Shown: one piece after another, positions 9,799 to 50,199 of the stretch
How the letters are laid out: each line of letters begins with the position of its first letter
Numbering within the stretch: the first letter of the stretch is position 1
Program-made: the position numbers and the translations under genes
Assembly: GCF_014199915.1 (NCBI RefSeq)
Contig: NZ_JACHOO010000005.1
Coordinates: 263,027 to 327,026, forward strand
Length of the DNA stretch: 64,000 nt
Reading direction: 5' to 3'
DNA from: Prosthecomicrobium pneumaticum
Lineage (GTDB): Bacteria > Pseudomonadota > Alphaproteobacteria > Rhizobiales > Kaistiaceae
The notes under the pieces: generated by a model
Seen by the model: the letters and a program-made list of their open reading frames with translations, nothing else
What the model was told of the DNA's origin: nothing
Databases searched by the model: none

Positions 9799-9977
9799 CG
9801 TCAACCTTGACGCCGAGCCACGCGACGACCATCTTCGACGTGGGCTTGCCACCTTCGACCTATCGCCGGGTCAAACGGCCTAAATATTGATCTTCATGCC
9901 ACCTCTCATCGATCCTTGCGGATTGGGCTGGCTGCGTAATCGGCGAACTGCTCGAGCCCGCAACCGAGGACTTGATG

Positions 9978-14629: not shown

Positions 14630-14631
14630 GG

Positions 14632-15347: not shown

Positions 15348-15351
15348 GTTC

Positions 15352-17784
15352 ATGATGAACCTTGCCGAATATCGCACGCACCCCGCGAGCCTCGCGGATT
15401 ATCTGCCTTGGGCCGGGCTCGTCGCATCGGGCGTCGTGCTCAACAAGGACGGTGCGTTCCAACGCACCGCACAGTTTCGTGGCCCCGACCTCGACAGCGC
15501 AACGGAAAGCGAGCTGGTGGCGACCACTGCCCGGCTCAACAACGCGCTGAAGCGCCTCGGCTCCGGCTGGGCGCTGTTCGTCGAAGCTGAACGGCGCATC
15601 GCCGCCGGATATCCCATCTCGGAATTTCCCGACGCGGTGTCGTGGCTCGTAGAGGAAGAGCGGCGCGCGGCGTTCGAGGAAGCAGGCACACATTTCGAGA
15701 GCGCCTACTACATCACGCTCGCCTTCCTGCCGCCGTCCGAAAGCAAGGCCCGCGCCGGCCAGCTCCTCTACGAGAGCACCGAGCGGCGCACCGTGAATTG
15801 GCGCGACCATCTCGCAGCCTTCATTTCCGAGACCGACCGCTTTCTCTCCTTGCTCGACGGCGTCATGCCGGAGATCCGCTGGTTCTCCGATGAGGAAACG
15901 CTGACTTACCTTCACGCTTGCATCTCCACGCAGCGGCACCCTGTCGCCGTTCCCCAGGTGCCGTTCCATCTCGACGCGCTGTTGCCTGACTGCGATTTCA
16001 CCGGTGGACTAGCGCCGATGCTGGGGGACCAGCATATGCGCGTGCTGACCATTCGCGGCTTTCCGCCCTCGACCTGGCCCGGCGTCCTTGACGACCTCAA
16101 CCGTCTCGGCTTCGCCTATCGTTGGTCGACCCGTTTCCTGTCGCTCGACAAGGCGGAAGCCGAACGCGAGCTGACCAAGGTGCGGCGGCAATGGTTCGCG
16201 AAACGCAAGGGTATCGTCACGCTGCTGCGCGAAACGATCTTCCAGCAGGAAGTTTCGCTAGTCGATTCAGACGCCGCCAACAAATCCGCTGATGCGGACG
16301 AAGCATTGCAGGAGCTGGGCTCAGATGCCGTGGCCTATGGCTATGTCACGGCCACCGTTACGGTCATGGACAAAAGTCCGGATCTCGCTGACGAGAAGCT
16401 GAAGGCCGTCGAGCGGATCATCCAGGGGCGTGGCTTCGTCACCATTCCGGAGACGCTGAACGCGACGGAGGCATGGCTGTCCTCGATCCCTGGACATGCC
16501 TACGCCAATGTTCGCCAGCCGCTGATCTCGACTCTGAACCTCTCACACATGATGCCGGTCTCGGCGGTTTGGGCAGGCCCCGAGAAGAATGGCCATCTCG
16601 ATGCTCCGCCGCTGATCGTCACCCGCACGGCCGGCGGCACGCCGTTCCGGCTCGTCACTCATGTCGACGATGTCGGCCACACTTTGATCGTGGGCCCTAC
16701 CGGTGCCGGCAAATCCGTGCTGCTGGCAATGCTGGCGCTCCAATTCCGCCGCTATGCCGGCTCTCGCATCTTCATCTTCGACAAGGGTGGCTCGGCCCGC
16801 GCCACCATCTTGGGCCTCGGCGGCGAGTATTACGATCTCGGATCCTCCGACGCCATTGCCTTTCAGCCGCTCGCCCGCATTGAGGATGACGACAGCCGCT
16901 CGTGGGCGGCCGATTGGATCGCCGGCTTGCTCGGGCATGAACACGTCGAAATCGTGCCCGATGTGAAGGACGCCGTCTGGTCGGCACTGACCAGCCTTGC
17001 ATCCGCCCCACGTGAGGAGCGAACGCTCACCGGCTTTTCCACGCTGTTGCAATCGAACCGGCTCCGCCAGGCGCTGCAACCCTACACCCTGTCGGGGCCA
17101 CATGGCCGGCTGCTGGACGCCGATGCCGATCGGCTTGGCTTCGGCGACGTGCAGGGCTTCGAAATGGAGGAACTGATGCACACGGCGAGCGCCGTGACGC
17201 CGGTCCTCACCTATCTTTTTCATCGTCTCGATGAGCGTTTCGACGGATCGCCCACGCTGCTCGTGCTCGATGAGGCTTGGGTGTTTCTCGACGATCCCAT
17301 CTTCGCTGCGCGCATCCGTGAATGGTTGAAGGTGCTGCGCAAGAAGAACGTCGCCGTCGTTTTCGCCACCCAGTCGCTTGCCGACATCCAGCGTTCTGCC
17401 ATCGCGCCAGCCATCGTCGAGAGCTGCCCGAGCCGGATCTTCCTGCCGTCGCCGCAGGCGAGCGAACCGCAGCTCCGCACGATCTATGAAGGATTTGGCC
17501 TCAACAGCCGCCAGATCGATATCATCACGCGGGCTCAGCCGAAGCGGGATTACTACTACCAATCCCGTCTCGGCAATCGGCTGTTCGACCTCGATCTCGG
17601 ACCTGTGGCGTTCGCCTTCGCCGGTGCCAGCCGCCCCGAGGATCATCGCCAGATGGACGATGTCCTCGTGTCCCATGGGCGCGATGCCTTTGCCGCAGCA
17701 TGGCTCGACGTGCGCGGGCTCGATTGGGCAGCCGACCTCATCCGCCAATTCCCGCTTCCGCAAAATCAGGAGACCGCATCATGA
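15352..17784 (+). CDS. trbE: TrbE, VirB4-like secretion ATPase
   Basis: The 810-residue product is the largest ATPase of the trb system and energises pilus biogenesis and substrate transfer. Walker A is GPTGAGKSVLLAML near residue 447, followed by IFDKGGSARAT. Walker B is LLVLDEAWVFLDDP near residue 637, and FATQSLADIQRS follows. The length agrees with TrbE proteins. The ATG pair at 15352/15355 follows GGAGG of the trbD tail. It overlaps trbJ by 4 bp. Confidence 0.96.
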   Translation: MMNLAEYRTHPASLADYLPWAGLVASGVVLNKDGAFQRTAQFRGPDLDSATESELVATTARLNNALKRLGSGWALFVEAERRIAAGYPISEFPDAVSWLVEEERRAAFEEAGTHFESAYYITLAFLPPSESKARAGQLLYESTERRTVNWRDHLAAFISETDRFLSLLDGVMPEIRWFSDEETLTYLHACISTQRHPVAVPQVPFHLDALLPDCDFTGGLAPMLGDQHMRVLTIRGFPPSTWPGVLDDLNRLGFAYRWSTRFLSLDKAEAERELTKVRRQWFAKRKGIVTLLRETIFQQEVSLVDSDAANKSADADEALQELGSDAVAYGYVTATVTVMDKSPDLADEKLKAVERIIQGRGFVTIPETLNATEAWLSSIPGHAYANVRQPLISTLNLSHMMPVSAVWAGPEKNGHLDAPPLIVTRTAGGTPFRLVTHVDDVGHTLIVGPTGAGKSVLLAMLALQFRRYAGSRIFIFDKGGSARATILGLGGEYYDLGSSDAIAFQPLARIEDDDSRSWAADWIAGLLGHEHVEIVPDVKDAVWSALTSLASAPREERTLTGFSTLLQSNRLRQALQPYTLSGPHGRLLDADADRLGFGDVQGFEMEELMHTASAVTPVLTYLFHRLDERFDGSPTLLVLDEAWVFLDDPIFAARIREWLKVLRKKNVAVVFATQSLADIQRSAIAPAIVESCPSRIFLPSPQASEPQLRTIYEGFGLNSRQIDIITRAQPKRDYYYQSRLGNRLFDLDLGPVAFAFAGASRPEDHRQMDDVLVSHGRDAFAAAWLDVRGLDWAADLIRQFPLPQNQETAS

Positions 17785-18509
17785 GGACACCACTTTGCCT
17801 TGCCGGTGCCTGCGCGCTCGGCATCGCTCTCGCGCCGCCGGTCGCGGCGCAGATCGTTTTCGATCCGAACAACTACAGCCAGAATGTGCTGTCGGCGGTT
17901 CGAGCCCTGGACCAGGTCAACAACCAGATCAAGAGCCTGCAAAACGAAGCTCAGTCGCTCCTCAATCAAACAAAGAACCTGACGAGCCTCGATTTCTCCG
18001 CACTAAACGATCTGAAACAGTCCGTCGCCAAGACGGAGCGCCTTATCAGCGAGGCCGAGGGCTTGAGCTTCGACATATCGGCGATGGAACGGCAATTCCA
18101 GCAGCTCTACCCGAAGGAATACGCGGCGTCCGCATCGAGCGATCAGATCCTCGCCGATGTGCGAAAGCGCTGGGAGCAGTCTCGATCCGCTCTGGAAACG
18201 GCCATGAAGATGCAGGCGCAGGTCTCCGAAAACCTCGCCTCCGACGAGGCTACTCTCGGCGATCTCGTCACTCGCAGCCAGTCGGCAACGGGGAATCTCG
18301 ACGCGACGCAGGCGACCAACCAGCTCCTTGCCCTTCAGGCTAAGCAAGCGATCGACGCCTCCCGGCTCAAGCTCTCTCAGGACCGCGCCGTCGCCGCGGA
18401 ACAGGCCCGTGCCGTCGCGGAGGAGGAGCGGGCGCGTGAGGTTCGCCGCCGATTCATGGGTGATGGCAGCAGCTATACGCCGGCACCCGTCCGGTTGTTC
18501 CGCGATTGA
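17781..18509 (+). CDS. trbJ: TrbJ, periplasmic VirB5-like protein
   Basis: The 242-residue protein has a signal peptide (about 1-23, ending PPVAAQ) and a long helical, Gln- and Ala-rich body, the build of VirB5/TrbJ proteins at the pilus tip. The family start IVFDPNNYSQNVLSAVRALDQ is clear. The ATG at 17781 overlaps the trbE stop. The last 21 residues (RRRFMG, then YTP.PV.LF) closely resemble the C-terminus of the next gene product, which is unexpected for two different families. Confidence 0.93.
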   Translation: MRTPLCLAGACALGIALAPPVAAQIVFDPNNYSQNVLSAVRALDQVNNQIKSLQNEAQSLLNQTKNLTSLDFSALNDLKQSVAKTERLISEAEGLSFDISAMERQFQQLYPKEYAASASSDQILADVRKRWEQSRSALETAMKMQAQVSENLASDEATLGDLVTRSQSATGNLDATQATNQLLALQAKQAIDASRLKLSQDRAVAAEQARAVAEEERAREVRRRFMGDGSSYTPAPVRLFRD

Positions 18510-18519
18510 GGGACCCGCC

Positions 18520-18843
18520 ATGCTCAGACAAATCATCCGTCTCGCTGTCGTGGCCGCGGTTGCCACCGGCGCCGGACTTCTCGTCCAATCGGCGCGGGCG
18601 GCCGACACGGTGGACAGCCTCGCCGCCGATCCGCAACGGCTCCGTGAGGTGCAAAAGCTTTGCAAGGACGACTGGGTTGGGACAGGCGACGAGCTGTGCA
18701 CCATGGCCAGCAAAGCGCAGCGGCGCCGCTTCATGGGTTCAGGCAGAACGCCGTACACGCCACATCCGGTCGATCTATTCCCGTCACTGAAGAAGAGCGG
18801 AACTCCGGAGAAAACCGACCCTATCGCGCCGGACGCGGAGTGA
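18520..18843 (+). CDS. TrbK-alt, putative entry exclusion protein
   Basis: The 107-residue protein has a signal peptide (residues 1-28, ending QSARAA) and two cysteines in VQKLCKDDW and DELCTMAS. It fits the TrbK-alt type (TIGR04360-like), placed between trbJ and trbL in many ICEs and thought to prevent entry of a second copy. It is not the classical lipoprotein TrbK. Its C-terminal RRRFMGSGRTPYTPHPVDLF repeats the end of TrbJ. It starts 10 nt after the trbJ stop. Confidence 0.78.
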   Translation: MLRQIIRLAVVAAVATGAGLLVQSARAADTVDSLAADPQRLREVQKLCKDDWVGTGDELCTMASKAQRRRFMGSGRTPYTPHPVDLFPSLKKSGTPEKTDPIAPDAE

Positions 18844-18849
18844 TTGTCC

Positions 18850-20199
18850 ATGGACGATCTCTCCGTCATCGACCGCTTCACCGACACCTTCTCGCAGTAT
18901 ATCGACAGCGGGTTTGGCCTGCTTCACGGTGAGATCACTTACCTTTCGGCGACGCTCATCGCCATCGATATAACGCTCGCCGGCCTGTTCTGGGCCTTCG
19001 GAGCCGGCAATGACGAGATTCTGGCGAAGCTCATCAAGAAGGTCCTCTATGTCGGTGCCTTCGCCTACATCATTACAAACTTCAATTCGCTGGCCGGCAT
19101 CATCTTCAGATCTTTCGCCGGGCTCGGCCTGACCGCCTCTGGCTCCGGCCTGTCCCAGGACGATTTCCTGCGTCCCGGTAAGCTCGCCTCTGTCGGCATG
19201 GACGCCGGCCGGCCGATCCTCGCGCAGATAGGCGACTTGTCCGGCTTCACCTCCGTCTTCTCCAACATCGACACCATCGCCGTCCTGTTCCTCGCCTGGC
19301 TCGTGGTCATCGTCAGCTTCTTCGTGCTCGCGGTGCAGCTCTTTGTGACGTTGCTGGAGTTCAAGCTGACCACGTTGGCCGGCTTCGTGCTGGTGCCCTT
19401 CGCATTTTGGAACAAGACGGCTTTCCTGGCCGAACGCGTGCTCGGCAATGTCGTGTCGTCCGGGATCAAGATCCTGGTCCTTGCCGTTATCGTTGGCATC
19501 GGCAACGGCCTCTTCGCGGAATTTCGTGCCTCGGCGGGAACAGAGCCGTCCATCGATCACGCGCTGGCGATCATGCTGGCGTCGCTCGCCATGCTTGGGC
19601 TGGGCATCTTCGGCCCGTCGATCGCGACGGGTCTCGTCTCCGGCGCCCCGCAGCTCGGCGCGGGTGCAGTCGCTGGCACCGCGCTCGCCGCCGGCGGCAT
19701 GGCGGTCGCGGCAGGCGCCGGAGCTGTCGGCGCGGCACGGCTCGGCGGGGCCGCTATAGGTTCCGGCGTCAAGGCGGCATCCACCATGTCGGGCGGCGCG
19801 CGTGCCGCCTTCGAGCTTGGTGCGGCGACGTCCGGTGCATCGGGCATGGGAGAGGTCGGAGCTGGTCTTGCCAGCGTGGCGCAAGCGGGTGGTGGCGCCG
19901 TCATGCAGGCGGGCCGCAGTGTCGTGTCACGCGTCGCGGGCACGGTCGGCGCCCGTGCTTCCGCCGGCGCCCATAGCGCTTGGACGGCTACCGGCGGCAA
20001 GCCCATGGGAGCGATGGGTGGGGCTGGGAACGATGCGTCGTTCGCCGGTGCCGGCGGTGCTCCCGCATGGGCCAATCGCGTGAGACATGGACCGCGCAAC
20101 TCGCGCGTCTCCCACGGAGCAACCACTGCGGCTCACGCCCTTCGCTCGGGGGATCATGGCGGCTCGGGAGCCAACCCATCCCTGCGACAGGAGGATTGA
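18850..20199 (+). CDS. trbL: TrbL, VirB6-like inner-membrane channel protein
   Basis: The 449-residue polytopic membrane protein begins DLSVIDRFTDTFSQYIDSGFG, typical of TrbL, and has about six hydrophobic segments in residues 25-270. The C-terminal 180 residues are rich in Gly and Ala, low in complexity and probably cytoplasmic or periplasmic. TrbL is thought to form the inner-membrane channel. The ATG at 18850 is preferred to a TTG two codons upstream. Confidence 0.93.
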   Translation: MDDLSVIDRFTDTFSQYIDSGFGLLHGEITYLSATLIAIDITLAGLFWAFGAGNDEILAKLIKKVLYVGAFAYIITNFNSLAGIIFRSFAGLGLTASGSGLSQDDFLRPGKLASVGMDAGRPILAQIGDLSGFTSVFSNIDTIAVLFLAWLVVIVSFFVLAVQLFVTLLEFKLTTLAGFVLVPFAFWNKTAFLAERVLGNVVSSGIKILVLAVIVGIGNGLFAEFRASAGTEPSIDHALAIMLASLAMLGLGIFGPSIATGLVSGAPQLGAGAVAGTALAAGGMAVAAGAGAVGAARLGGAAIGSGVKAASTMSGGARAAFELGAATSGASGMGEVGAGLASVAQAGGGAVMQAGRSVVSRVAGTVGARASAGAHSAWTATGGKPMGAMGGAGNDASFAGAGGAPAWANRVRHGPRNSRVSHGATTAAHALRSGDHGGSGANPSLRQED

Positions 20200-20202
20200 A
20201 CA

Positions 20203-20898
20203 ATGCGCTTCAAACGCGCTGGCGTGCGCTATTCGCAAACGTCGGAACCCGCCACGCCCTATCAGGCCGCCGGCCAGTTGTGGGATGAACGCCTAGGCTC
20301 CGCCCGCGTTCAAGCACGCAATTGGCGGCTCATGTCCTTCGGCTGCCTGACACTTGCCGTGGGCATGGCTGGCGGTCTGCTGTGGCAGGCTGGCCGCTCC
20401 ACCGTCACGCCCTATGTGGTCGAGGTCGATCAGCTCGGTCAAGTCAAGACCGTTGGCCCGGCCGTGGAAGCTTATCGGCCGACCGACGCCCAGATTGCCT
20501 ACGCGCTCGCCCGGTTCATACAGAATGTGCGCGCACTGCCCACCGATCCCATCGTGGTGCGGCAGAACTGGCTCGAGGCTTACGACTTCACCACCGATCG
20601 CGGCAGCGCCGGGTTGAATGACTATGCGCGCGCCAACGATCCGTTCGGCAAGGTCGGCAAAATGTCGGTCGCCGTCGAGGTCACCAGCGTCGTGCGCGCA
20701 TCGGACAGCTCCTTCCAGATCCGCTGGATCGAGCGGCGCTATGAGAACAATCAGCTTGCCGGCACGGATCGCTGGACCGGCATCCTCACCATCATCATGC
20801 AACCACCGCGCACCGAGGACCGGCTGCGTAAGAATCCTCTCGGCATTTTCGTCAACGGCATCAACTGGAGCCGTGAACTCGGCGCCGGCGGGTCGTGA
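20203..20898 (+). CDS. trbF: TrbF, VirB8-like transfer protein
   Basis: The 231-residue product has one N-terminal membrane helix (about residues 46-63) followed by a VirB8-like periplasmic domain. Its markers are PYVVEVDQLGQV near residue 70, RQNWLEAYDFTTDRG near 120 and SFQIRWIERRY near 168. It nucleates the assembly of the secretion channel at the inner membrane. The gene sits 3 nt after trbL with a good AGGAGG site. Confidence 0.94.
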   Translation: MRFKRAGVRYSQTSEPATPYQAAGQLWDERLGSARVQARNWRLMSFGCLTLAVGMAGGLLWQAGRSTVTPYVVEVDQLGQVKTVGPAVEAYRPTDAQIAYALARFIQNVRALPTDPIVVRQNWLEAYDFTTDRGSAGLNDYARANDPFGKVGKMSVAVEVTSVVRASDSSFQIRWIERRYENNQLAGTDRWTGILTIIMQPPRTEDRLRKNPLGIFVNGINWSRELGAGGS

Positions 20899-20912
20899 AG
20901 GAGAAAAGGATC

Positions 20913-21905
20913 ATGACCCGCATGCTGCCATTCCGCATTCTCCTCCTCTCGTCCGTCACGTTGCTGGCGGGTTGCGCCGGGAAAACACCGCCGCCGGAAA
21001 TCTCCCTGGATGAACCCTACGAGGCGAGCCGGATCGTCGAGCCGGCTGGTCCCGTCGAGATAGTCGAGCTGCCGAAGCCATTGCCACTGCCCGGCCAGTT
21101 AAAGCCGATGCCAGTCAAGGGCGGAACAGTTGAACCTGCCGATCCGAAGCTACGCGTCACGACGGCCAATGATGCGGCCCGCGTGCAACCGACCCGCACC
21201 GGCTATGTCAATGCAACGCAGGTCTGGCCCTACATGGCTGGCGCGCTCTATCAGATTTATGCGGCGCCTGAAAAAGTAACGGACATCGCCCTGCAGAGCG
21301 GCGAAGAGCTGATCTCCGTCTCGGCCGGCGACACCGTGCGATGGGTGATCGGCGACACGACCAGCGGTGGGGGCGGAAGCCAGCAGACCCACATCCTGGT
21401 GAAACCCACGCGGCCGGATCTGAAGACCAATCTGGTGGTCAACACCAACCGCCGGACCTACCTCCTCGAACTCACATCGACGCCCCAGACCTGGATGGCA
21501 TCGGTTTCCTGGGACTATCCACACGACCGTCTTCTCGCGCTGCAACGTCAGAATGATCGTGCGGGGACTGCCACGCCGGTCGCAAATGCCGTCGCGCTCG
21601 AGCGAGTCCAGTTCCGCTATGAGATCACAGGCGACAATCCATCGTGGCGGCCGACCCGCGTCTTCGATGACGGTGAGAAGGTCTATATCCAGTTTCCCGC
21701 CGGTATCGCCCAGGGCGAGTTGCCGCCGCTGTTCGTTGTCGGCCCCACTGGGGAGAACCAGCTCGTCAACTACCGCGCAAAGCCGCCTTATTACATCGTC
21801 GATCGCCTGTTCGGTGCGGCGGAGCTTCGTCTCGGCGGCGAGAAGCAGCAGATCGTGCGTATCTCGCGCACCGATGGCAACCGGCTGGGGATCTTCGGGC
21901 TATGA
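20913..21905 (+). CDS. trbG: TrbG, VirB9-like outer-membrane complex protein
   Basis: This 330-residue protein is the TrbG/VirB9 component of the core channel. The N-terminus has a lipoprotein-type signal with LLAGCAGK, so Cys may be lipidated. The VirB9 domain follows, with LQSGEELISVSAGDTVRWVIG near residue 128 and TNRRTYLLELTST near 180. The C-terminal QIVRISRTDGNRLGIFG is typical. The start at 20913 is chosen for the AAGGAG before it; a GTG 18 nt upstream is less likely. Confidence 0.94.
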   Translation: MTRMLPFRILLLSSVTLLAGCAGKTPPPEISLDEPYEASRIVEPAGPVEIVELPKPLPLPGQLKPMPVKGGTVEPADPKLRVTTANDAARVQPTRTGYVNATQVWPYMAGALYQIYAAPEKVTDIALQSGEELISVSAGDTVRWVIGDTTSGGGGSQQTHILVKPTRPDLKTNLVVNTNRRTYLLELTSTPQTWMASVSWDYPHDRLLALQRQNDRAGTATPVANAVALERVQFRYEITGDNPSWRPTRVFDDGEKVYIQFPAGIAQGELPPLFVVGPTGENQLVNYRAKPPYYIVDRLFGAAELRLGGEKQQIVRISRTDGNRLGIFGL

Positions 21906-23176
21906 CCGTGCCACCCAAATCCCCGCCACCCGATCTCGCCATTCGCGCCAAGCCGCGTCCCGTGACCCGTCTCAATCGCTGGACCTTGATGGTGCTCGCC
22001 GGCGCCGTCTCTACCGCAGTGCTTGGCGCGATGATTTGGGCGTTGCAAAGCCGGGACAGATCAGCCCGGACCGATGAGGAGCTCTACAACACCGATCGCG
22101 TCAACCCGGCGGAGGGGCTGCAAACGTTACCGCGCGACTATACGCAGGTTCAACCACCGAAGCTCGGTGCCCCCTTGCCCGGTGAGCTCGGTGGGCCAGT
22201 CGTGCGCACCGAACGGGAGGCGGGCATTCCGCCCATGCCCGAGCGGCCGAGTTTCAGGGCTGATCCGGAAGAGGATGCCAAACGCGCGGCGCGCCTTCGT
22301 GCCCAGCAGGAAGCGGAAGCCGCAGCGAAAGCAGCCGTGTTCTTTCAGACGACACGCCCGAAGCAGGAGGTATCGGCAACCGCGGCCGCCTCGCCGGAGC
22401 CAAACCGGCTCGATCTCACCGCCATACGCGCTACCGGTGCGGAATCTACCGTTGCTCCGCCCGTCGATGAAATGACCACGCAGAATATGCAGGATCGCAA
22501 GCAGGCGTTCGCAAGCCGCGAAGCCGACCAGAAGATTTACGGATCTGGAACTCTCCAAACGCCACGCTCGCCCTATCAGGTAATGGCCGGCACCATCATT
22601 CCGGCCGCCTTGGTGACGGGGATCAATTCCGATCTGCCGGGCCAGATCATCGGTACCGTCACCGAGAATGTCTACGACACGGCTACGGGCAGGCATCTCT
22701 TGATCCCCCAGGGCACCCGCCTGATGGGCCAGTACGATTCCGGCGTCACCTTCGGCCAGAGCCGTGTGCTCCTGGTCTGGAATCGCCTCATCATGCCGGA
22801 CGGCTCCTCCATCGTGCTGGATCGTCTCTCCGGCGTCGATACCGCCGGCTATTCGGGCCTTGAAGATGAGGTCGACAATCACTGGCTCCGCCTGATCGGA
22901 GGCGCGGTCCTCTCCTCGCTGCTCGGCATTGGCGCCGAACTGGCAGCCCCTCAAAATCAGGGAACGAACGGCGATCAGGTCATCATCGCGACCCGGGATG
23001 GTGCCCAGGACACCATCAACGATGTCGGCCAGCAGATCACACGGCGAAATCTCAATATCCAGCCGACCTTGAAGGTGCGGCCGGGCTTTCCGGTCCGCGT
23101 CATCGTCAATAAGGATCTCGTCTTGCGACCCTATCGCGCCGCCCCGATGACGGCTGACATCAGGAGGGATGATTGA
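21902..23176 (+). CDS. trbI: TrbI, VirB10-like channel protein
   Basis: The 424-residue TrbI spans both membranes. A membrane helix (about residues 30-48) is followed by a Pro-rich periplasmic region. The conserved C-terminal domain contains YQVMAGTIIPAALVTGINSDLPGQ and LIPQGTRLMGQYDSGVTFGQSR. It closes with PTLKVRPGFPVRVIVNKDLVL. It couples inner-membrane energy to the outer-membrane pore. It overlaps trbG and the next gene by 4 bp each. Confidence 0.95.
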   Translation: MTVPPKSPPPDLAIRAKPRPVTRLNRWTLMVLAGAVSTAVLGAMIWALQSRDRSARTDEELYNTDRVNPAEGLQTLPRDYTQVQPPKLGAPLPGELGGPVVRTEREAGIPPMPERPSFRADPEEDAKRAARLRAQQEAEAAAKAAVFFQTTRPKQEVSATAAASPEPNRLDLTAIRATGAESTVAPPVDEMTTQNMQDRKQAFASREADQKIYGSGTLQTPRSPYQVMAGTIIPAALVTGINSDLPGQIIGTVTENVYDTATGRHLLIPQGTRLMGQYDSGVTFGQSRVLLVWNRLIMPDGSSIVLDRLSGVDTAGYSGLEDEVDNHWLRLIGGAVLSSLLGIGAELAAPQNQGTNGDQVIIATRDGAQDTINDVGQQITRRNLNIQPTLKVRPGFPVRVIVNKDLVLRPYRAAPMTADIRRDD

Positions 23177-26333: not shown

Positions 26334-26606
26334 TCAGTGATTGTGGGGCTGGTTCTTGCGAACGTCCGCTGATCCGCTTCCGCTATCGTCTCTGCGCCCA
26401 TGTCCGCCGTGGCCGCCATGCATGAAAACATGCATCAACGGGCAGGCGAGGATCAGCAGGAACGGCAAATACCCCAGATACGGGATGAGATGCGCGCGGT
26501 GCTCGGTCAGAAGATAGAAGGCGCCGATCGCGAGATAGCCGATCAGGACCCAATTTGCGCGGGAGCGAAAGAAGCCACCCTCACTACCATGACCGTCATG
26601 TTCCAT
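26334..26606 (-). CDS. DUF2933 domain-containing small membrane protein
   Basis: This 90-residue protein starts MEHDGHGSEGGFFRSR, has two membrane helices between about residues 18 and 60, and a His-rich tail (HVFMHGGHGGHG). This is the DUF2933 pattern. The His-rich ends suggest metal contact; the role is unknown. The start is preceded by GGAG. One TTGAT-N4-GTTAA box lies about 150 bp upstream (26757-26770), so it probably begins an operon with the methyltransferase gene. Confidence 0.8.
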   Translation of the reverse strand: MEHDGHGSEGGFFRSRANWVLIGYLAIGAFYLLTEHRAHLIPYLGYLPFLLILACPLMHVFMHGGHGGHGRRDDSGSGSADVRKNQPHNH

Positions 26607-26756
26607 GGAGACTCCACCCACATCAGACCGGGACGCACCGGCACGCCCTGCAATCGTCTAGAGCTCGCTAGACGATGCAGGCTGGCATCGACCTGGCGCC
26701 ATCCTCCGAGCGACACGACAGCGCTCGAACCATGGCCGGCCATCTGTTCTGAATCT

Positions 26757-26770
26757 TTGATCCCGGTTAA
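26757..26770. promoter_or_regulatory. FNR-like box TTGATCCCGGTTAA
   Basis: This exact TTGAT-N4-GTTAA site lies 151 bp upstream of the DUF2933 start and after the NifX-like gene. It is one of six such sites in the cargo region and resembles Crp/Fnr (FNR/FixK) boxes, TTGAT-N4-ATCAA. The rest of 26607-26844 shows no gene. Confidence 0.55.
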
Positions 26771-27254: not shown

Positions 27255-27268
27255 TTAAACTCGATCAA
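27255..27268. promoter_or_regulatory. FNR-like box, reverse TTGATCGAGTTTAA
   Basis: On the plus strand the site reads TTAAACTCGATCAA; in the direction of the NifX-like gene it reads TTGAT-CGAG-TTTAA, one mismatch from the island consensus. It is 63 bp upstream of that gene and 222 bp upstream of the Cys-rich ORF on the other strand. The remainder of 27193-27490 shows no gene. Confidence 0.5.
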
Positions 27269-27490
27269 ACATTCGCGTGGGCGGGGCGGCACCTCACAAT
27301 CTGCAAGGTGTCCGGCGGACAGCGGGAAGGCGCCACGCGCGCAGGGTTCCGGGCGGTCGGTGCGCACCGACCGCCACTTGATTTCAATCAATCTCGTCGA
27401 GCCTTTCCCCGTATAGGTTTCCGCCGGGCTAATTGGTAGCTGCGGGGCCGTGTGGTAACTTGCGGCTCAGGCCTTCTTGGAAAGAGGCGG

Positions 27491-27856
27491 ATGCTACGGT
27501 TGCTCGCCATATTGATCTTTGCCACGGCGATCTTCACGACGCTGAGCGGGCGGAGTATGGCCGGGACTGTAGCGATCAGCGCCGACGCGACTATGGTGGT
27601 CGTAAGCGCTTCTGACTTTCGGCCCCATATTGACGAATGCGATGATTGCCCGGAGTGTCCGAATTCGGACAAGACCTCCTGTCCGATGAGTAGCTGCTCC
27701 TGCCCGGCGGCCTGCTCAACGACTTTAGCGCCCCTGCCTGGCAACCTCCCGGCCCATGCGTTCCACCGCTCTTCAGCGGGGATGCGGCCCGAAGAAGCCG
27801 ATCCAAACTCAGTCGTCCCCGGACTCGACCCCCCAGTTCCTCGGCGCTCGACCTAG
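27491..27856 (+). CDS. Exported Cys-rich small protein
   Basis: The 121-residue product has a signal peptide (about 1-24) and then a Cys cluster: ECDDCPECP followed by CPMSSCSCPAAC, eight cysteines in about 30 residues. The C-terminal third is Pro-rich and ends DPPVPRRST. I do not recognise the family. The pattern of signal, cysteines and Pro-rich end recalls the three copper leader ORFs elsewhere in this window, but the cysteine spacing differs. A metal-binding or metal-sensing role is a guess. The start follows GAAAGAGG. Confidence 0.55.
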   Translation: MLRLLAILIFATAIFTTLSGRSMAGTVAISADATMVVVSASDFRPHIDECDDCPECPNSDKTSCPMSSCSCPAACSTTLAPLPGNLPAHAFHRSSAGMRPEEADPNSVVPGLDPPVPRRST

Positions 27857-28198: not shown

Positions 28199-28960
28199 AT
28201 GCCGATGCCGGGGAATGGCACGACAAAGCAGCTACCGGGTTGTGAGGCTTGCTTCGCCCGGGTTAACCGGGGTTTGTGCGGGGATTGCCAGCCGGGATCT
28301 CCATGTGCGGTCGCGAGTTATAAAACTGCTGATCGGGAATACAAGGTCGGCCAGGATCTCTTCAGCCTGGGCGAACCGTGTGACTCAATATTCAATCTCC
28401 TCGAAGGTTGGGTTATTCTTTACAATATATTGGATGACGGTCGGCGACAGATTTTGCACTTCGCTTTGCCGGGCGCTGTGCTCGGATTCCATCCCGGCGG
28501 CGGCGCGATGATGACATATGGCGCGCAAGCTCTGACTGACATCGTCGTCAGCACAATTCCGCACAAGGCTCTACAGCCGATTGTCAGCCAGCAGCCCGAG
28601 TTCGGTCTGCGGCTTGCCTGGCTGGTCGCGCGGGATTGCACCTTGGCCTACGATCGCCTTACCAGCATTGGCCGGCATTCAGCGCGGGAGCGCGTTGCGC
28701 ACCTGCTGCTCAAGCTGTTCGTCCGCTGCCGCGCGCAATGGCCGGGCAGTCATATCGAGGAGATGAATCTTCCGCTGACCCAAGAAGATATTGGAGATGC
28801 AACGGGTCTGACCTTCGTCCATGTCAACCGGGTGCTGAGGGATCTGCGAAAGGATAGGATCCTAGAATTCCACTATCGACGGCTCCGAATCCTCGATCCG
28901 GACAAACTCGTCGACGTTGCAGGTCTTGACCCGCAACTCGTCATGTCCTGGATTCGCTGA
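28199..28960 (+). CDS. Crp/Fnr-family regulator with an N-terminal Cys cluster
   Basis: From the ATG at 28199 (AAAGGA upstream) the protein has 253 residues, the usual Crp/Fnr size. Five cysteines lie at positions 15, 18, 27, 30 and 36, suggesting an Fe-S cluster as in FNR. The cyclic-nucleotide-like barrel follows (DLFSLGEPCDSIFNLLEGW to ILHFALPGAVLGF). The C-terminal helix-turn-helix is LTQEDIGDATGLTFVHVNRVLRDLR. FNR has T-V-E-T-I-S-R in its recognition helix; here it is T-F-V-H-V-N-R, so the base-reading Glu is absent. It is the best candidate to bind the six TTGAT-N4-GTTAA sites. Oxygen or redox sensing is inferred. Confidence 0.85.
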   Translation: MPMPGNGTTKQLPGCEACFARVNRGLCGDCQPGSPCAVASYKTADREYKVGQDLFSLGEPCDSIFNLLEGWVILYNILDDGRRQILHFALPGAVLGFHPGGGAMMTYGAQALTDIVVSTIPHKALQPIVSQQPEFGLRLAWLVARDCTLAYDRLTSIGRHSARERVAHLLLKLFVRCRAQWPGSHIEEMNLPLTQEDIGDATGLTFVHVNRVLRDLRKDRILEFHYRRLRILDPDKLVDVAGLDPQLVMSWIR

Positions 28961-31828: not shown

Positions 31829-33016
31829 TCAGTGGAGAGCCTCAAGCGCCAACGCGACCCCCTGACCGCCGCCGATGCACAGCGTCACCAATCCGCGCCG
31901 GATACCGTCTCGGTGCATCGCGTGAAGGAGGCGGGTCGTCAGCACGGCTCCTGTCGCACCGATCGGATGGCCATGTGCGATGGCGCCGCCCTCGACATTG
32001 ACGATGTCCTCGGGGAGCCCGAGTTCCCCGATGAGCGCCAAGACGATCGCCGCGAAGGCCTCGTTGATCTCCACGCGCTCGACGTCGCCGAGCGTCCAAC
32101 CAGCGCGATCCAAGGCCTGCCGCACCGCGGGAACAGGCCCGAGACCGAACAGGCCGGGTTCGACCGCGCCGACCCCGAAGGCCACAAGACGGGCCATCGG
32201 CGTCAGGCCATGCTTCTCGGCCCAGCGGGCATCCGCAACGATCATGCCCGCGGCGCCGCTGTTGAGGCCCGGTGCATTGCCGGCGGTAATGGTTCCATCC
32301 TTGCGGAAAGCCGGCTTCAGCTTGGCCAGCGACTCCAGCGTTGCGTCCGGGCGGTTGTGCTCATCCTTGTCGAAGATCGTCGGCCCCTTGCGACCGGGGA
32401 TTTCGATCGGCGCGATCTCGGCATTGAACATGCCGGCCGCCTGCGCCGCGCCAAAGCGCTGCTGCGTCCGCTCCGCCCAGCGGTCCTGCGCCTCGCGCGT
32501 CACCTGAAACTTGCTGACGAGGTCCTCGGTCACCAAGCCCGAGTGGTGATCGGAGAAGGCGTCGTTGAGGCCGTCGCGCAGCATGCTGTCGTAGATTTGG
32601 GCATCGCCCATGCGGTAGCCCCACCGTCCGCCAGACATCAGGTAGGGCGATTGGTCCATGTTCTCCATGCCGCCGGCGATGGCGCTCTCGGCGAGGCCGA
32701 GCATGATCTCCTGCGCGGCGGTCGCGATCGCTTGTGCACCCGAGCCACATACCCGGTTTATGGTCATCGCTGGAACGCCGACCGGAATGCCGGCCGTGAT
32801 CGCCGCCTGCCGCGCTGGGTTCATCTTGGCGCCGGCCTGGACGACCTGCCCCATCACCACGGTGCCGATCGCGCCGTCTGCGATCTTCGCGCGCGACAAT
32901 ATTTCCCTGATCACCACCGCCCCGAGATCGGGTGCCGCTATGTCCTTCAGCGTTCCGCCATACGTGCCGATGGCTGTCCGCACCGGGGCGCAGAGCACGA
33001 CGTTCGACTGTGCCAT
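31829..33016 (-). CDS. phaA: Acetyl-CoA acetyltransferase (thiolase)
   Basis: The 395-residue product is a complete biosynthetic-type thiolase condensing two acetyl-CoA to acetoacetyl-CoA. The nucleophile Cys90 is in NRVCGSGAQAI, His350 in GGAIAHGHPIGATGA and the acid-base Cys380 in TLCIGGGQG. The start at 33016 follows AAAGGAC. Upstream lies only the tail of the reductase gene phaB, so the usual next step to 3-hydroxybutyryl-CoA would need a host enzyme. Confidence 0.92.
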   Translation of the reverse strand: MAQSNVVLCAPVRTAIGTYGGTLKDIAAPDLGAVVIREILSRAKIADGAIGTVVMGQVVQAGAKMNPARQAAITAGIPVGVPAMTINRVCGSGAQAIATAAQEIMLGLAESAIAGGMENMDQSPYLMSGGRWGYRMGDAQIYDSMLRDGLNDAFSDHHSGLVTEDLVSKFQVTREAQDRWAERTQQRFGAAQAAGMFNAEIAPIEIPGRKGPTIFDKDEHNRPDATLESLAKLKPAFRKDGTITAGNAPGLNSGAAGMIVADARWAEKHGLTPMARLVAFGVGAVEPGLFGLGPVPAVRQALDRAGWTLGDVERVEINEAFAAIVLALIGELGLPEDIVNVEGGAIAHGHPIGATGAVLTTRLLHAMHRDGIRRGLVTLCIGGGQGVALALEALH

Positions 33017-33255
33017 GTGGATGTCCTTTCTATTTCCGGGGGGCGCCATGCCATGAACAGGCCGCCATTGGCGGTGACCTTCGAGCCCGTGACGAACGTT
33101 GCCTCCCCGCTCACCAAGAACCGGACGATGCGTGCGACCTCGTCGGCATTGCCCAGCCACCCGACAGGGATTTGCCCCTCGATTTTTGCAAGAGTATCTT
33201 CAGACATGGCATCAAGCGTGTCCGTTGCGATGTAGCCGGGCGCGACAACATTCAT
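32947..33255 (-). pseudogene. 3'-terminal fragment of acetoacetyl-CoA reductase (phaB)
   Basis: The reading frame gives NVVAPGYIATDTLDAMSEDTL, IPVGWLGNADEVARIVRFL and TGSKVTANGGLFM, the last 66 or so residues of a short-chain dehydrogenase of the PhaB type. The Rossmann motif and the catalytic Ser-Tyr-Lys part are absent. At the 3' end the normal stop is lost and the frame runs 23 codons into phaA. The break at about 33256 lies 15 nt from the sigma factor gene, so the 5' part was replaced by a rearrangement. Confidence 0.75.
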
Positions 33256-33270
33256 CTGTGTTCATTGCAT

Positions 33271-33951
33271 TCATCCGTCCTGGGGCGGCGACTTGGTTTC
33301 GTCGGCGAGACCGCGAGCTCGTTGGCGAATGCGCTCGGCCTCATCGCACCGGCAATCGAGAAAGCCGTGGACCGGACAGGTCAGGCACATTTCCTCGAGC
33401 CTCTTGCGGAGCGCCTGGCGCCCCCTGTGGAGCCTGACCGCGATGTTGTTGAGCGTGGTGCCGAGGCTGGCGGCGATCCGATCACGCGGCTCGCCAAGAA
33501 TGTCAGAGCGCCAGACGACGTCGGCATATTCGGGCTTGAGCGTCGGTAGCAGCTTATGCAGGCAGTTACAGACGGCCTCGTCGGTTTCTCGATCCGGCTC
33601 GATCGGCAGGCTCTCCACATCCGACTGGTCCATGTCGACCTCCTGGCGACGGCGTCTGATGGCGCGTCGCTGGTGATCGACGAGGGTGGTCGCCAGAATG
33701 CGCCCGAGCCAACCGCGAACCGTGCGGACGTCCCGCAACTGCCAGGCGCGCTCGAGCGCCCGAAGCGAGAACTGCTGCAACAACTCTTCGGCCTCGTCCC
33801 GGCTGCCTACCCGATGATGCAGAAAGACCAGAAATTCTTCGCGTGCCTCGACAAGCGCTCGTCGTACAGCCGCGTCCGCCGGCTTCGCGGCTTCCTGTCC
33901 TTCCGCATCACCTTCCGAATGCCGGACATCCTCTTCATGCCTATTGGTCAT
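33271..33951 (-). CDS. ECF-type RNA polymerase sigma factor with a Cys-containing tail
   Basis: The 226-residue protein has sigma region 2 (FLVFLHHRVGSRDEAEELLQQFSLRALERAWQLRD, with RGWLGRILATTLVDHQRR) and region 4 (LLPTLKPEYADVVWRSDILGEPRDRIAASLG). After region 4 a short tail carries CLTCPVHGFLDCRC, four cysteines that could bind a metal and sense redox state. No anti-sigma gene is adjacent. It is the first gene of the leftward group leading into the pha remnants, and an FNR-like box lies about 100 bp upstream. Confidence 0.85.
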   Translation of the reverse strand: MTNRHEEDVRHSEGDAEGQEAAKPADAAVRRALVEAREEFLVFLHHRVGSRDEAEELLQQFSLRALERAWQLRDVRTVRGWLGRILATTLVDHQRRAIRRRRQEVDMDQSDVESLPIEPDRETDEAVCNCLHKLLPTLKPEYADVVWRSDILGEPRDRIAASLGTTLNNIAVRLHRGRQALRKRLEEMCLTCPVHGFLDCRCDEAERIRQRARGLADETKSPPQDG

Positions 33952-34049: not shown

Positions 34050-34063
34050 TTAACGCAGATCAA
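34050..34063. promoter_or_regulatory. FNR-like box, reverse TTGATCTGCGTTAA
   Basis: On the plus strand the site reads TTAACGCAGATCAA; towards the sigma factor gene it reads TTGAT-CTGC-GTTAA, an exact match to the island consensus, 99 bp upstream of that start. It could also serve the rightward truncated gene at 34221. Confidence 0.55.
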
Positions 34064-35906: not shown

Positions 35907-35920
35907 TTGATTGGAGTTAA
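35907..35920. promoter_or_regulatory. FNR-like box TTGATTGGAGTTAA
   Basis: This exact TTGAT-N4-GTTAA site lies between cfa (start 61 bp to the left) and the alcohol dehydrogenase remnant (start about 100 bp to the right). It could serve both directions. Confidence 0.55.
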
Positions 35921-36022
35921 ACATCGGTATTCGATGATGGCTTCAATCGATCGCCGATGAGAGCGGCCGCGACGACGGCTCGGGTGCCCCGTGAATGCAC
36001 GATCGACCCAAGGAGATCTTCA

Positions 36023-37094
36023 ATGGCATTGATGAGAGCAGCCGTTTTGTCGAGCCTGGTCGCATTGTCCTTGATGAAAAGGCGATTCCAGAGATTGGTC
36101 CGCTCGACGCGCTCATCAGGATTGCGGCCACGACGATCTGTGGAACTGACGTGCATATTTTCAGGGGCGAGTATCCGATGGAAAAAGGCCTGACCATTGG
36201 TCACGAGCCGGTCGGAGTGATCGAGAAGCTCGGTTCTGCCGTTTCCGGCTTTCACGAGGGCCAGCGTGTCATCGCCGGCGCGATCACACTAAGCGGTCAC
36301 AGCAATGCATGTCTTTGCGGCTATCACTCGCAGGACGGCGCGGGCACCAGGCACGGCTGGAAACCGGCGGGCGGCTGGAAATTCGGCAATACGATCGATG
36401 GCTGTCAGGCCGAGTTCGTGTGCGTCCCCGACGCCATGGTCAATTTGAGTCCCGTACCGGACGGTTTGACCGACGAACAGGTGCTGATGTGCCGGACATC
36501 ATGTCGGCAGGCTTCGTCGGTGCAGAGAATGGAGACATCCGCATCGGCGATAGCGTCGTGGTTTTCGCTCAAGGGCCGATCGGGCTTTGTACCACCGCCG
36601 GCGCCAAATTGAGAGGCGCCACGATTATCATCGCCGTCGATGCAATCGCCGAACGAATGGCCGTGTCGCACATGCTCGGCGCGGACTTCGTCGTCGATTT
36701 CAAGAATGCCGACCCCGTCGAGGAGATCATGAGGATCACGGATGGCCGCGGGGTCGACGTCGCGATCGAAGCGCTGGGGACGCATACAACCTTCGAGGCT
36801 GCGTTGGGCGTGCTTCGGCCGGGCGGCACGCTGTCGAGCCTCGGCGTCTACTCGACCAATCTTCGGATTCCGCTCGCGGCGTTCGCCGCAGGGCTGGGGG
36901 ACCACAAGATCGTCACGGCGCTGTGTCCGGGCGGCAGGGAGCGGATGCGGCGGCTCATGGACGTGATCGCTTCCGGCAGGATCGATCTGACGCCGCTCGT
37001 CACTCACCGCTACAAGCTCAACGACATCGAGAGTGCCCATGAGCTTTTCTCCAATCAGCGTGACAGGGTGTTGAAGATTGCCATTACGCCCTAG
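36023..37094 (+). pseudogene. Zinc-type alcohol dehydrogenase with two frameshifts
   Basis: The ATG at 36023 follows a perfect AAGGAG and encodes MALMRAAV. The frame is then lost at the T run 36044-36047 and continues one frame over as FVEPGRIVLDEKAIPEIGPLDALIRI, with the zinc-site motif TTICGTDVHIF and GLTIGHEPVGVIEKLG. A second shift near 36492 (TGCCGG, where TGCCCGG would restore the frame) leads to PDIMSAGFVGAENGDIRIGDS and the NAD-binding half. Both lesions are single-base losses. Repaired, the protein would have about 358 residues, normal for the family. The substrate is unknown. Confidence 0.8.
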
Positions 37095-39863: not shown

Positions 39864-39877
39864 TTAACCTCGATTAA
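39864..39877. promoter_or_regulatory. FNR-like box, reverse TTAATCGAGGTTAA
   Basis: The site reads TTAACCTCGATTAA on the plus strand, one mismatch from the consensus. It lies 126 bp upstream of the ATPase remnant, from which transcription could continue through the MFS and ppk2 genes. It is followed, in the direction of transcription, by AAGATGCCT; the box upstream of the intact copper ATPase is followed by the similar AAGACATGCCT. Nothing else was found in 39739-40054. Confidence 0.55.
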
Positions 39878-41601: not shown

Positions 41602-43704
41602 TCATTTGTGCCGCCTGTAGAAACGCAGGAACTGCGCGTTGATGGCGACGATAACGGTGCTGGCGGACATGAAGACAGCGGCGACGGCCGGGGTCATCAG
41701 GAAGCCCGTTCCGAAGGTGATGCCAGCCGCCATCGGGATGGCGATTGCATTGTAGCCGGTCGCCCAGATCAGGTTCTGCACCATCTTGCGATAGGTAGCG
41801 CGTGACAGGCCGAGGATCGCGGCTACATCGCGCGGGTCGCTCCTGACCAAGACGACATCGGCGGATTCCACCGCGACGTCGGTGCCGGCGCCAATGGCGA
41901 TCCCGAGATCGGCCACAACCAGCGCTGGCGCGTCATTCACGCCGTCGCCAACCATGGCAACCTGCAGTCCGCGCGCCTGCAACTCCACGATCTTCTCGGA
42001 TTTCTGATTCGGCAGCACCTCGGCGAAATACTCGGCTATGCCAAGTTCCTCCGACACCGCTTGCGCGACCCCCGTGGCGTCGCCGGTGAGCATCACGGAG
42101 TCGATGCCGAGCGACTTCAGTTCGGCGATGGCCGCCTTCGATTCCGGCCGGACGATGTCGGCCAGCGCGAACAGGGCGCGCGGCTCGCCATCGCGGACGA
42201 GGATGACCACCGTCTTGCCCTGAGCTTCCAGTTGGTCGAGCCGATCGCGGCCGATCGCCTTGCCCTGCCTTGCGAGATGGCCGGGGCTCACGATACGGAT
42301 GTCGGCGCCATCGACCTTTGCGACGATGCCCTCGCCGGTGATGTTGCTGACCTCGCTGGCCTTCGGGATGGTCAAGTTGCGAACTCTCGCCTCGGCTACG
42401 ATGCCGTGGGCGATCGGATGCTCGGACTGGCTCTCGGCCGCTGCGGCGAGGGCGAGTTCCTCGTTCTCGTCACCGCCGGCGAGCAGCACGATGTCGCTGA
42501 CGCCAAACCGGCCTTCCGTCAACGTGCCGGTCTTGTCGAAGACCACAGCGTTCAGATTGCGCGCGCGTTCGAAGGCCGCGCGGTCACGGATCAGAAGTCC
42601 GTTCCCAGCGCTGAGCGAGGTGCTGACGGCGACGACGAGCGGAACGGCAAGCCCGAGCGCATGTGGGCACGCGACCACCATAACCGTCACCATGCGCTCA
42701 AGCGCGAACTCGAGCGACTCTCCGAGAACCAGCCACCAGACGAAGAGCGTGCCGAAGCCGACGGCGAGAGCGATATAGGTGAGCCATGAGGCGGCGCGGT
42801 TGGCGATGTCCTGCGTTCTGGAGCGCGTCGCCTGCGCCTTCTTCACGAGATCGATGACTTGGGCGAGATAGGTAGCGTCGCCCGTAGCGGTCACCTCGAT
42901 GGTCACGGCATTGGCGCCGTTGATCGCGCCGCCAATGGCGGTGGCGCCGACCGTCTTGGAAACCGGGCGGGATTCGCCGGTCAACATCGCCTCGTTGAAG
43001 CCGGATGACCCCTCAATGATCTTCCCGTCCACGGGCACCTTGGCGCCCGGGCGTACGAGAACCCGATCCCCCGGCTGCAATGCGAAGATGGGAACCTCTT
43101 GCATCGAGCCGTCGGCGCCGATCTTCGTAGCGCTATCGGGCAGCAGCCGGACCAGTTCCTCGAGCGCCCGCGAGGCACCCATCACGGAGCGCATCTCGAC
43201 CCAGTGGCCGAGAAGCATGATCGCGACCAAGGTCACGAGTTCCCAATAGAACGGCTCTCCCGGAAAGCCGAAAGTGGTGGCGGCCGAGAAGAAGTAGGCC
43301 GCCGAGATCGCCAGGGCGATCAGGGTCATCATCCCGGGCTGCCCCTTGCGCAGCTCGGACGTGAAACCGGTGAGGAATGGCCACCCGCCATAGACGTAGG
43401 CGATGGTCGAGAGCGCGAATAGGACGATGCTGTCGCCCGGAAATGCCATTTTCTCGGCGATGCCAAACCAATGCTGGATCATCGGCGACAGAAGCAAGAC
43501 CGGAGGCGTGAGAACGAGCGTGACCCAGAAACGGCGCCGAAAGTCGGCGACCATCGCGCCATGATCATGCCCGGCATGCTCGGAATGACTGGAACCGGCT
43601 GCCGCCACGATCGTGGGATCGGTGTGACGATCATCCTGCCGCAGGCTGCCAGCATGATCGGCATGACCGTTGTGATCGTGGGCATGTGGCCGGTCGGAGG
43701 TCAT
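41602..43704 (-). CDS. copB: Copper-exporting P-type ATPase, CPH type (CopB-like)
   Basis: The 700-residue ATPase has a His-rich N-terminus (HAHDHNGHADH, HSEHAGHDHG) instead of CxxC domains. The intramembrane motif is VVACPHALGLAVP near residue 344, the phosphorylation site is VFDKTGTLTEG near 387, and SEHPIAHG and MVGDGVNDAPALVVADLGIA follow. The CPH motif and His-rich start define P1B-3 (CopB) ATPases, which expel copper from the cytoplasm. The start at 43704 is chosen for the family N-terminus; the frame is open for 28 more codons. An FNR-like box lies about 140 bp upstream. Confidence 0.93.
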   Translation of the reverse strand: MTSDRPHAHDHNGHADHAGSLRQDDRHTDPTIVAAAGSSHSEHAGHDHGAMVADFRRRFWVTLVLTPPVLLLSPMIQHWFGIAEKMAFPGDSIVLFALSTIAYVYGGWPFLTGFTSELRKGQPGMMTLIALAISAAYFFSAATTFGFPGEPFYWELVTLVAIMLLGHWVEMRSVMGASRALEELVRLLPDSATKIGADGSMQEVPIFALQPGDRVLVRPGAKVPVDGKIIEGSSGFNEAMLTGESRPVSKTVGATAIGGAINGANAVTIEVTATGDATYLAQVIDLVKKAQATRSRTQDIANRAASWLTYIALAVGFGTLFVWWLVLGESLEFALERMVTVMVVACPHALGLAVPLVVAVSTSLSAGNGLLIRDRAAFERARNLNAVVFDKTGTLTEGRFGVSDIVLLAGGDENEELALAAAAESQSEHPIAHGIVAEARVRNLTIPKASEVSNITGEGIVAKVDGADIRIVSPGHLARQGKAIGRDRLDQLEAQGKTVVILVRDGEPRALFALADIVRPESKAAIAELKSLGIDSVMLTGDATGVAQAVSEELGIAEYFAEVLPNQKSEKIVELQARGLQVAMVGDGVNDAPALVVADLGIAIGAGTDVAVESADVVLVRSDPRDVAAILGLSRATYRKMVQNLIWATGYNAIAIPMAAGITFGTGFLMTPAVAAVFMSASTVIVAINAQFLRFYRRHK

Positions 43705-43844: not shown

Positions 43845-43858
43845 TTGATCGAGGTTAA
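43845..43858. promoter_or_regulatory. FNR-like box TTGATCGAGGTTAA
   Basis: This exact match lies 141 bp upstream of the CopB start. It is the most typical copy of the six. Apart from it and the b561 remnant I see nothing between 43705 and 44273. Confidence 0.55.
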
Positions 43859-50123: not shown

Positions 50124-50199
50124 ACCTCACAGAGGCCATTGATGTGGATCAAGGTGGAATTGTGCGGAGGGTGCCTTCTTGAGGAGGCAGGGGTCAGGC

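Follow-up and report, generated by a model that had tools for sequence, protein, structure and literature searches.

The window, as we call the whole 64,000-nucleotide stretch of DNA analysed here, encodes a Crp/Fnr-type regulator of 253 amino acids (28199..28960, plus strand; ATG at 28199, stop codon ending at 28960). On balance, our data favour the view that this protein is a second-tier, island-borne activator, probably induced by the host's FixK/FNR-type protein and probably redox-sensing as well. According to the model that we suggest, the regulator would be a Crp/Fnr activator that travels with anoxia-survival and metal-resistance cargo. A host FixK/FNR-type protein would turn on its gene through a TTGA/TTGA box, and the regulator, presumably as a homodimer, would act at TCT-flanked mixed sites, with oxygen control relayed in two tiers. 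Less firmly, we suggest that the N-terminal cysteines of the regulator may hold an Fe-S cluster that would add a redox check of its own, with C30 or C36 possibly replacing the ligand that FNR takes from its central cysteine.

Family placement and recognition helix

The regulator has a cNMP-binding-like beta-roll followed by HTH_Crp_2 (Pfam PF00027 cNMP_binding, 49.9 bits; PF13545 HTH_Crp_2, 62.8 bits; both above the cut-off), the arrangement that marks the Crp/Fnr superfamily. Its top two NCBIfam families are the FnrL and FixK equivalogs (100 and 99.9 bits), with scores of about 100 bits that stay far below the curated cut-off of 300 bits, and its top sequence match in the PDB is 4i2o (FixK2). 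FixK2, however, retains E-T-V-S-R in its recognition helix, whereas the regulator has another helix and a cysteine-rich N-terminus. With FNR, ANR and FnrL, the oxygen-sensing [4Fe-4S] regulators, it shares the domain order and the N-terminal CxxC...C triad, but it lacks the central cysteine and the Glu and Ser of the recognition helix. It is a variant inside Crp/Fnr that falls outside FNR at the central cysteine and the helix, and it may still function in an FNR-like manner.

Close relatives of the regulator are sparse. Homologues were found at E 1e-30 in 30 of 385 genomes of a class-level sample, at 1e-40 in 3 of 151 relatives and in 1 of 398 genomes of the phylum, and at 1e-70 in 7 of 397 genomes of the order, the last three counts each including the window's own genome. 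A protein with 93% identity to the regulator is present in Ancylobacter dichloromethanicus. The larger clade includes plasmid proteins of Rhizobium, Ancylobacter, Pseudorhizobium and Agrobacterium; from 13 plasmid matches, five regions were taken and four counted.

When the regulator is aligned to the solved FNR and FixK2 chains, T205-F-V-H-V-N-R211 falls on the T-V-E-T-I-S-R type helix, with F-V-H-V-N-R opposite x-E-T-[VI]-S-R of FixK2 and FNR. Glu209 of FNR corresponds to Val207 and Ser212 to Asn210, and Arg213 is kept (DNA-contact residues of FNR as given in the available part of PMC4505428), so that V-H-V-N-R stands where FNR has E-x-x-S-R. The earlier note, which had read TFVHVNR as a replacement of T-V-E-T-I-S-R and had concluded that the recognition Glu is gone, was right on both counts. 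Its wording of an altered helix holds for the comparison with FNR, but not as a peculiarity of this regulator. H[VT][NC][RK] occupies the helix position in 45 of 48 aligned homologues, a share that is not a census, as the rows were gathered by similarity to the window protein and three matched pieces were excluded. The three exceptions have ETV[SC]R, and two of them are other regulators of the same genome. We therefore rejected the idea that the helix of the regulator is unusual.

The earlier note also proposed that loss of the Glu could explain the TTAA half of the boxes, and here the outcome is mixed: the two go together only in part. Boxes of the island clade are mostly TTGAT-N4-RTTAA, in agreement with the correlation between Crp/Fnr positions 180 and 181 and the operator that is described in the available part of PMC1274295. 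According to the same part of that paper, NssR (A180, Q181) has the operator TTAACnnnnGTTAA and HcpR2 (Pro181) the operator GTAACnnnnGTTAC; both resemble the regulator in combining a non-Glu residue at CRP position 181 with A for G in the half-site core. A precedent for A in place of G without Glu181 thus exists in the consulted text, and so do mixed sites. In NssR and HcpR2, however, both halves are altered, whereas boxes of the regulator clade usually keep one TTGA half, and retention of TTGA in the second half of most operators qualifies the explanation. A further qualification comes from five loci at a greater distance (G175, G460, G274, G227 and G379), which have this helix or one akin to it; near them we found five TTGA/TTGA sites, one double-TTAA site and no mixed pair. 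A sixth locus, L100, has a single mixed pair, 4.7 kb from the regulator gene. Because of these loci, the helix by itself might not determine the operator motif.

The operator and the genes that it precedes

The TTGA/TTAA boxes described in the earlier note are real. The exact pattern TTGATNNNNGTTAA is found at four places in the 4.65 Mb genome, all of them in the window and within about 17 kb (reversed-pattern control, 0). With at most one mismatch, it occurs six times in the window against 0.78 expected, a number that none of 100 shuffles reached. The symmetric pattern TTGATNNNNATCAA shows no enrichment there (2 against 1.14 expected, reached by 30 of 100 shuffles). Across the genome, TTRAYNNNNRTTAA has six distinct sites, five of them in the window (control, 1 per strand), and TTGAYNNNNRTCAA has 19, of which 17 lie outside the window (control, 2 per strand); mixed against two-TTGA sites in the window and in the rest of the genome gave a Fisher P of 0.002, with counts entered by hand. 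The only TTRAYNNNNRTTAA site outside the island, G000:C4:335891-335904 (TTAACGAGCGTTAA), is of the double-TTAA kind. Although 84% of the window is coding, as judged by a simple codon-usage script that served as gene caller in place of a published gene finder, all eight of its TTRA/TYAA pairs fall between genes. In a spacer test on five islands, a gap of 4 gave 42 pairs, and the other gaps from 0 to 8 gave 1 to 8.

Since some earlier regions had been chosen for their boxes, pairs were recounted in 16 regions chosen by regulator homology, including the window, whose boxes had first drawn attention. These regions contain 86 TTRA/TYAA pairs, 80 of them intergenic, with intergenic DNA at 17.6%. The intergenic pairs comprise 59 mixed ones (one TTGA and one TTAA), 14 with two TTGA and 7 with two TTAA, counts that overstate the independent events, since boxes common to close relatives have been inherited. 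Of the 53 unique sites, 37 are mixed, compared with 26.2 expected by random pairing (permutation P 0.003). One locus, L056, has the regulator helix and no box pair within its 19 kb region. At the level of genomes, TTGATNNNNGTTAA has 39 sites in the six genomes of the five-cysteine clade (control, 5), is near background in seven other regulator-bearing genomes (13 sites; control, 7), and has 22 sites in 27 genomes of the same family (reversed control, 12). Such bare counts are weak, since TTGATNNNNGTTAA turns up in 99 of 151 relatives, and the evidence lies in the clustering in one island.

Among mixed and double-TTAA sites, 47 of 126 halves are preceded by TCT, as compared to 1 of 28 for island TTGA/TTGA sites (Fisher P 0.0002) and 0 of 34 for 17 TTGA/TTGA (FixK-type) sites elsewhere in the genome (Fisher P 2.5e-6). 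The resulting consensus is TCTTTGATCnnGRTTAARGA, with an extended half-site TCTTTRAT that is usually present as one TTGA and one TTAA half. Oriented counts place the TCT flank on both halves, which suggests that one protein occupies both, presumably as a homodimer. For this reason, we set aside, as a less likely option, a heterodimer with host FixK on the TTGA half and the island protein on the TTAA half. Plasmid homologues that lack the cysteines have the same boxes in their regions, and the sites therefore track the DNA-binding part of the clade, not the cysteines.

We consider it very probable that this operator is linked to the regulator clade. It is conceivable, if quite improbable in our judgement, that the boxes belong to a host FixK/FNR-type protein and that the island regulator reads something else. 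The boxes do look like FNR boxes, and a TTGA/TTGA box precedes the gene for a FixK-like protein (helix IETVSR) in the same genome. Moreover, FnrL/Dnr sites of D. shibae can also have the form TTAAC-N4-GTCAA, and a site of this kind at nirS was tested by mutation (available part of PMC5398030). Regions chosen for the box alone contained a regulator homologue in only 2 of 13 cases (G535 C22 and C75), which makes the box a poor route to regulators, and the other 11 had 1 to 3 mixed pairs each. The two regions with a homologue, however, are those with the highest numbers of mixed pairs (7 in the stretches examined of C22, and 4 in C75, where the homologue is broken into pieces). Mixed sites are also confined to the window, whereas FixK-type sites are spread over the genome, and the TCT flank that is frequent at the former is missing from the latter.

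If the operator is correctly assigned to the regulator, it would set the protein apart from FNR, ANR and FnrL, which have TTGATNNNNATCAA instead of a mixed and often TCT-flanked site. In the literature that we searched, the mixed-box pattern had no match, which does not prove its absence in print.

Five mixed boxes of the window can be placed next to genes. TTGATCCCGGTTAA (26757..26770, plus strand, TCT flank) is found about 155 bp before a DUF2933 gene (26334-26609, minus strand), after which comes an isoprenylcysteine methyltransferase-like gene, and TTGATCGAGTTTAA (27255..27268, minus strand) about 70 bp before a Nitro_FeMo-Co-like gene (minus strand; probable start at 27192, chosen by eye). 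TTGATCTGCGTTAA (34050..34063, minus strand) precedes a sigma-70-like gene (33271-33951, minus strand) by about 105 bp, and TTGATCGAGGTTAA (43845..43858, plus strand) precedes a heavy-metal P-type ATPase gene (41602-43704, minus strand; copper and cadmium models both above the cut-off) by about 150 bp. TTGATTGGAGTTAA (35907..35920, plus strand) is located between cyclopropane fatty acid synthase-like (minus strand) and zinc alcohol dehydrogenase-like (plus strand) genes, and falls in the first codons of the former if its reading frame starts at the longest ATG, at 35924. The zinc alcohol dehydrogenase match is split across overlapping frames (35995-36612 and 36309-37094; window 35995-37094) and looks like a frame-shifted gene or a sequence error. 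A double-TTAA box, TTAATCGAGGTTAA (39864..39877, minus strand), has the TCT flank on one side. The symmetric box TTGATGTGGATCAA (50139..50152, plus strand) has no such flank and is probably FixK-type or a chance occurrence, outside the regulon of the regulator.

The cargo of the window also includes DUF3141, thiolase, PPK2, CusF-like, multicopper oxidase and CusA/CzcA genes. In the four plasmid relatives, the regulator genes are accompanied by different combinations of P-ATPase, DUF2933, arginine deiminase pathway, PPK2 and DUF3141 genes. As the nearest described parallel, we identified the lxa locus of Burkholderia cenocepacia, which has the FNR-type regulator BCAM0287 and whose neighbouring genes, going by their numbers, code for acetoacetyl-CoA reductase, zinc alcohol dehydrogenase and universal stress proteins (available parts of PMC4505428, PMC6127331 and PMC9104464); the two were compared by gene descriptions. 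Of a possible lxa-type set, the window has thiolase, partial acetoacetyl-CoA reductase, zinc alcohol dehydrogenase, DUF3141 and PPK2 genes. The set differs from lxa, as far as these texts describe the latter, in that it lies, along with copper genes, on what looks like a conjugative element, in DUF3141 and PPK2, and in another type of regulator. The acetoacetyl-CoA reductase-like gene of the window (32947-33255) was found only by its C-terminal part. A plus-strand run of genes with TrbE and, as recognized by eye, other conjugation genes adjoins the cargo (7984-23176) and suggests an integrative conjugative element.

Proposed input from the host

We lean towards a model in which the regulator gene is switched on by the host FixK/FNR-type protein through a TTGA/TTGA box, making two tiers. 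TTGA/TTGA sites of the 16 regions are concentrated upstream of the regulator gene (9 of 14; binomial P 8e-10, with a rough denominator). When 1,300 bp upstream were examined, such a box was present 620-900 bp before the regulator at 11 of 17 loci, and no TTGA/TTGA box was found within this distance in L013, L056, L060, L055, L088 and L090. Among loci added later, three of four have an upstream TTGA/TTGA box (L120, L122 and L123), and L121, the second of a tandem pair, is without one of its own; a further locus, L119, is a repeat of L015. In L096, the upstream TTGA/TTGA box carries the TCT flank.

The proposed input site in the window is TTGATTTCAATCAA (27378..27391, plus strand), a symmetric FNR/FixK-type box without TCT flank. 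Autoregulation through this box was considered as well and appears less likely, as the flank is absent. The box lies about 106 bp before a small, cysteine-rich and apparently secreted open reading frame (27491..27856, plus strand; ATG at 27491 or GTG at 27452), which is followed by the regulator. The encoded protein has a signal-like N-terminus, as judged by eye, and a cysteine-rich middle, and it has no Pfam match over the cut-off. Similar short cysteine-rich frames precede homologues of the regulator (L097:14228-14572 and L099:14244-14573), and all three have DPPVPR near the end. The product is possibly a periplasmic metal-binding peptide.

The gene for the FixK-like protein, the candidate for the upper tier, adjoins genes that, by eye, resemble those for acetate kinase and PHA synthase. 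The genome has five HTH_Crp_2 matches, and three others are readable as Crp/Fnr proteins without such a cysteine cluster (L054 left out). A relay from the host protein to the regulator would explain how plasmid relatives manage without the cysteines. As a putative second tier, the regulator would resemble NnrR and Dnr, which stand below FnrL in a cascade, and the D. shibae boxes are mixed in a similar way (available part of PMC5398030). NnrR and Dnr, however, serve denitrification, whereas the regulator is encoded in a mobile cargo island and contains a cysteine cluster. An operator of its own would let plasmids and conjugative elements carry a survival module for anoxia and metals, and would avoid competition with host FixK/FNR sites while the host signal is taken at one gate. 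The operator pattern could then be used to look for such modules elsewhere.

The N-terminal cysteines

Translation of the open reading frame confirms the cysteines at positions 15, 18, 27, 30 and 36 that the earlier note had reported; others include C61 and C147. The observation on the regulator was real, and more is present than had been described. C15-x2-C18-x8-C27 has the form CxxC-x5-9-C, aligns with the triads of other homologues and is an ordinary FNR-like triad. Triads like this one are known from FnrN- and FnrL-like proteins. The central position, at which FNR has a cysteine (number 122), is Ser118 in the regulator, and it is Ser or Asn in all six members of the window clade (the window, L008, L011, L012, L013 and L014; L008, L009 and L010 encode identical proteins and were counted once). 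C30 and C36 are present in the same six and in none of the remaining rows of the 48-row alignment. Outside the window clade, all eight proteins with a complete triad have the central cysteine (L015, L056, L060, L061, L063, L064, L027 and L100). Another 8 of the 48 rows have it but lack the full triad (L062, L070, L029, L036, L040, L041, L043 and L047), and the central cysteine alone is therefore not a mark of a cluster.

Together, the loss of the central cysteine and the gain of C30 and C36 suggest that a cluster ligand may have been relocated. As the central cysteine is missing, Fe-S binding cannot simply be copied over from FNR; it is plausible for the regulator, but not transferable. We judge it as likely as not that the cysteines have a redox role, by an Fe-S cluster or otherwise, and somewhat less likely than not that an Fe-S cluster is held by N-terminal cysteines only. 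Additional conserved cysteines are a feature of FnrL proteins too, six of them in an alignment from Rhodobacteraceae (available part of PMC5398030). An AlphaFold2 model, computed for the window protein with five relatives, is of low confidence (mean pLDDT 46, with values below 50 for residues 1-158) and gives no view of the cysteine geometry.

It is also possible, though unlikely in our estimate, that the N-terminal cysteines bind Zn(II), Cu(I) or another metal, and that the regulator is a metal-responsive or structurally zinc-bound activator. C15-x2-C18-x8-C27-x2-C30 has zinc-ribbon-like spacing, the central cysteine is lost, and copper genes abound in the island, with heavy-metal P-ATPase (preceded by a mixed box), CusF-like, multicopper oxidase and CusA/CzcA genes all in the window. 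However, boxes precede non-metal genes as well, related proteins of the larger clade have the FNR-type 3+1 pattern, loss of C15 in L013 breaks the first CxxC, and plasmid homologues without the cysteines sit in similar metal-gene regions.

The same plasmid homologues bear on another model, to which we give a similarly low probability: the cysteines may belong to a decaying sensor, in a protein that is constitutively competent and regulated solely at the level of its transcription, via the host box, like its plasmid relatives. Consistent with this idea, the plasmid sister clade lacks the five cysteines and the central one and yet keeps helix and boxes, which argues that the cysteines are not required for DNA recognition. 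Losses of the central cysteine, and of C15 in L013, point in the same direction, as does a stop codon in L014. However, C18, C27, C30 and C36 are invariant in the six window-clade sequences, whereas 31 of the 40 other positions among residues 1-45 vary and 9 are invariant (one-sided Fisher P 0.02), and the gain of two extra cysteines is not predicted by decay.

In a tree of 29 rows, with the N-terminal segment omitted, the window clade has a support of 91/96 and is nested in an 18-row clade with a support of 99/97. Forks inside the latter range from 81/73 to 91/91, and the order of cysteine states there is less sure. The larger clade also holds members with the triad plus the central cysteine and members with none of these cysteines; the plasmid homologues lack them, with one different cysteine near the annotated start in L097. 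Two homologues found later add further combinations, L121 with C30 and a retained central cysteine, and L122 with the central cysteine and no triad. The sensor part switches state often, and the reading of a ligand swap rests on one clade. As a speculative generalization, sensor and address may evolve independently in this mobile-element clade of Crp/Fnr proteins, with the operator constant as TCTTTGATCnnGRTTAARGA and the sensor in several states (triad plus central cysteine; N-terminal cysteines with C30/C36 and no central cysteine; none).

If the regulator does hold its Fe-S cluster by N-terminal cysteines only, the signal would reach the dimer interface without the beta-roll ligand of FNR. 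A real ligand swap would separate cluster holding from beta-roll contact, which are coupled in FNR, and a comparison of natural relatives could then test how the signal passes from the cluster to the dimer.

The L014 homologue (L014:346-1104) has its stop codon inside the cysteine segment, with the remaining cysteines and the rest of the frame retained. At G1079:C1:619012-621249, two homologues lie in tandem, L123 and L121; the first is without N-terminal cysteines, and the second has four of them together with the central cysteine.
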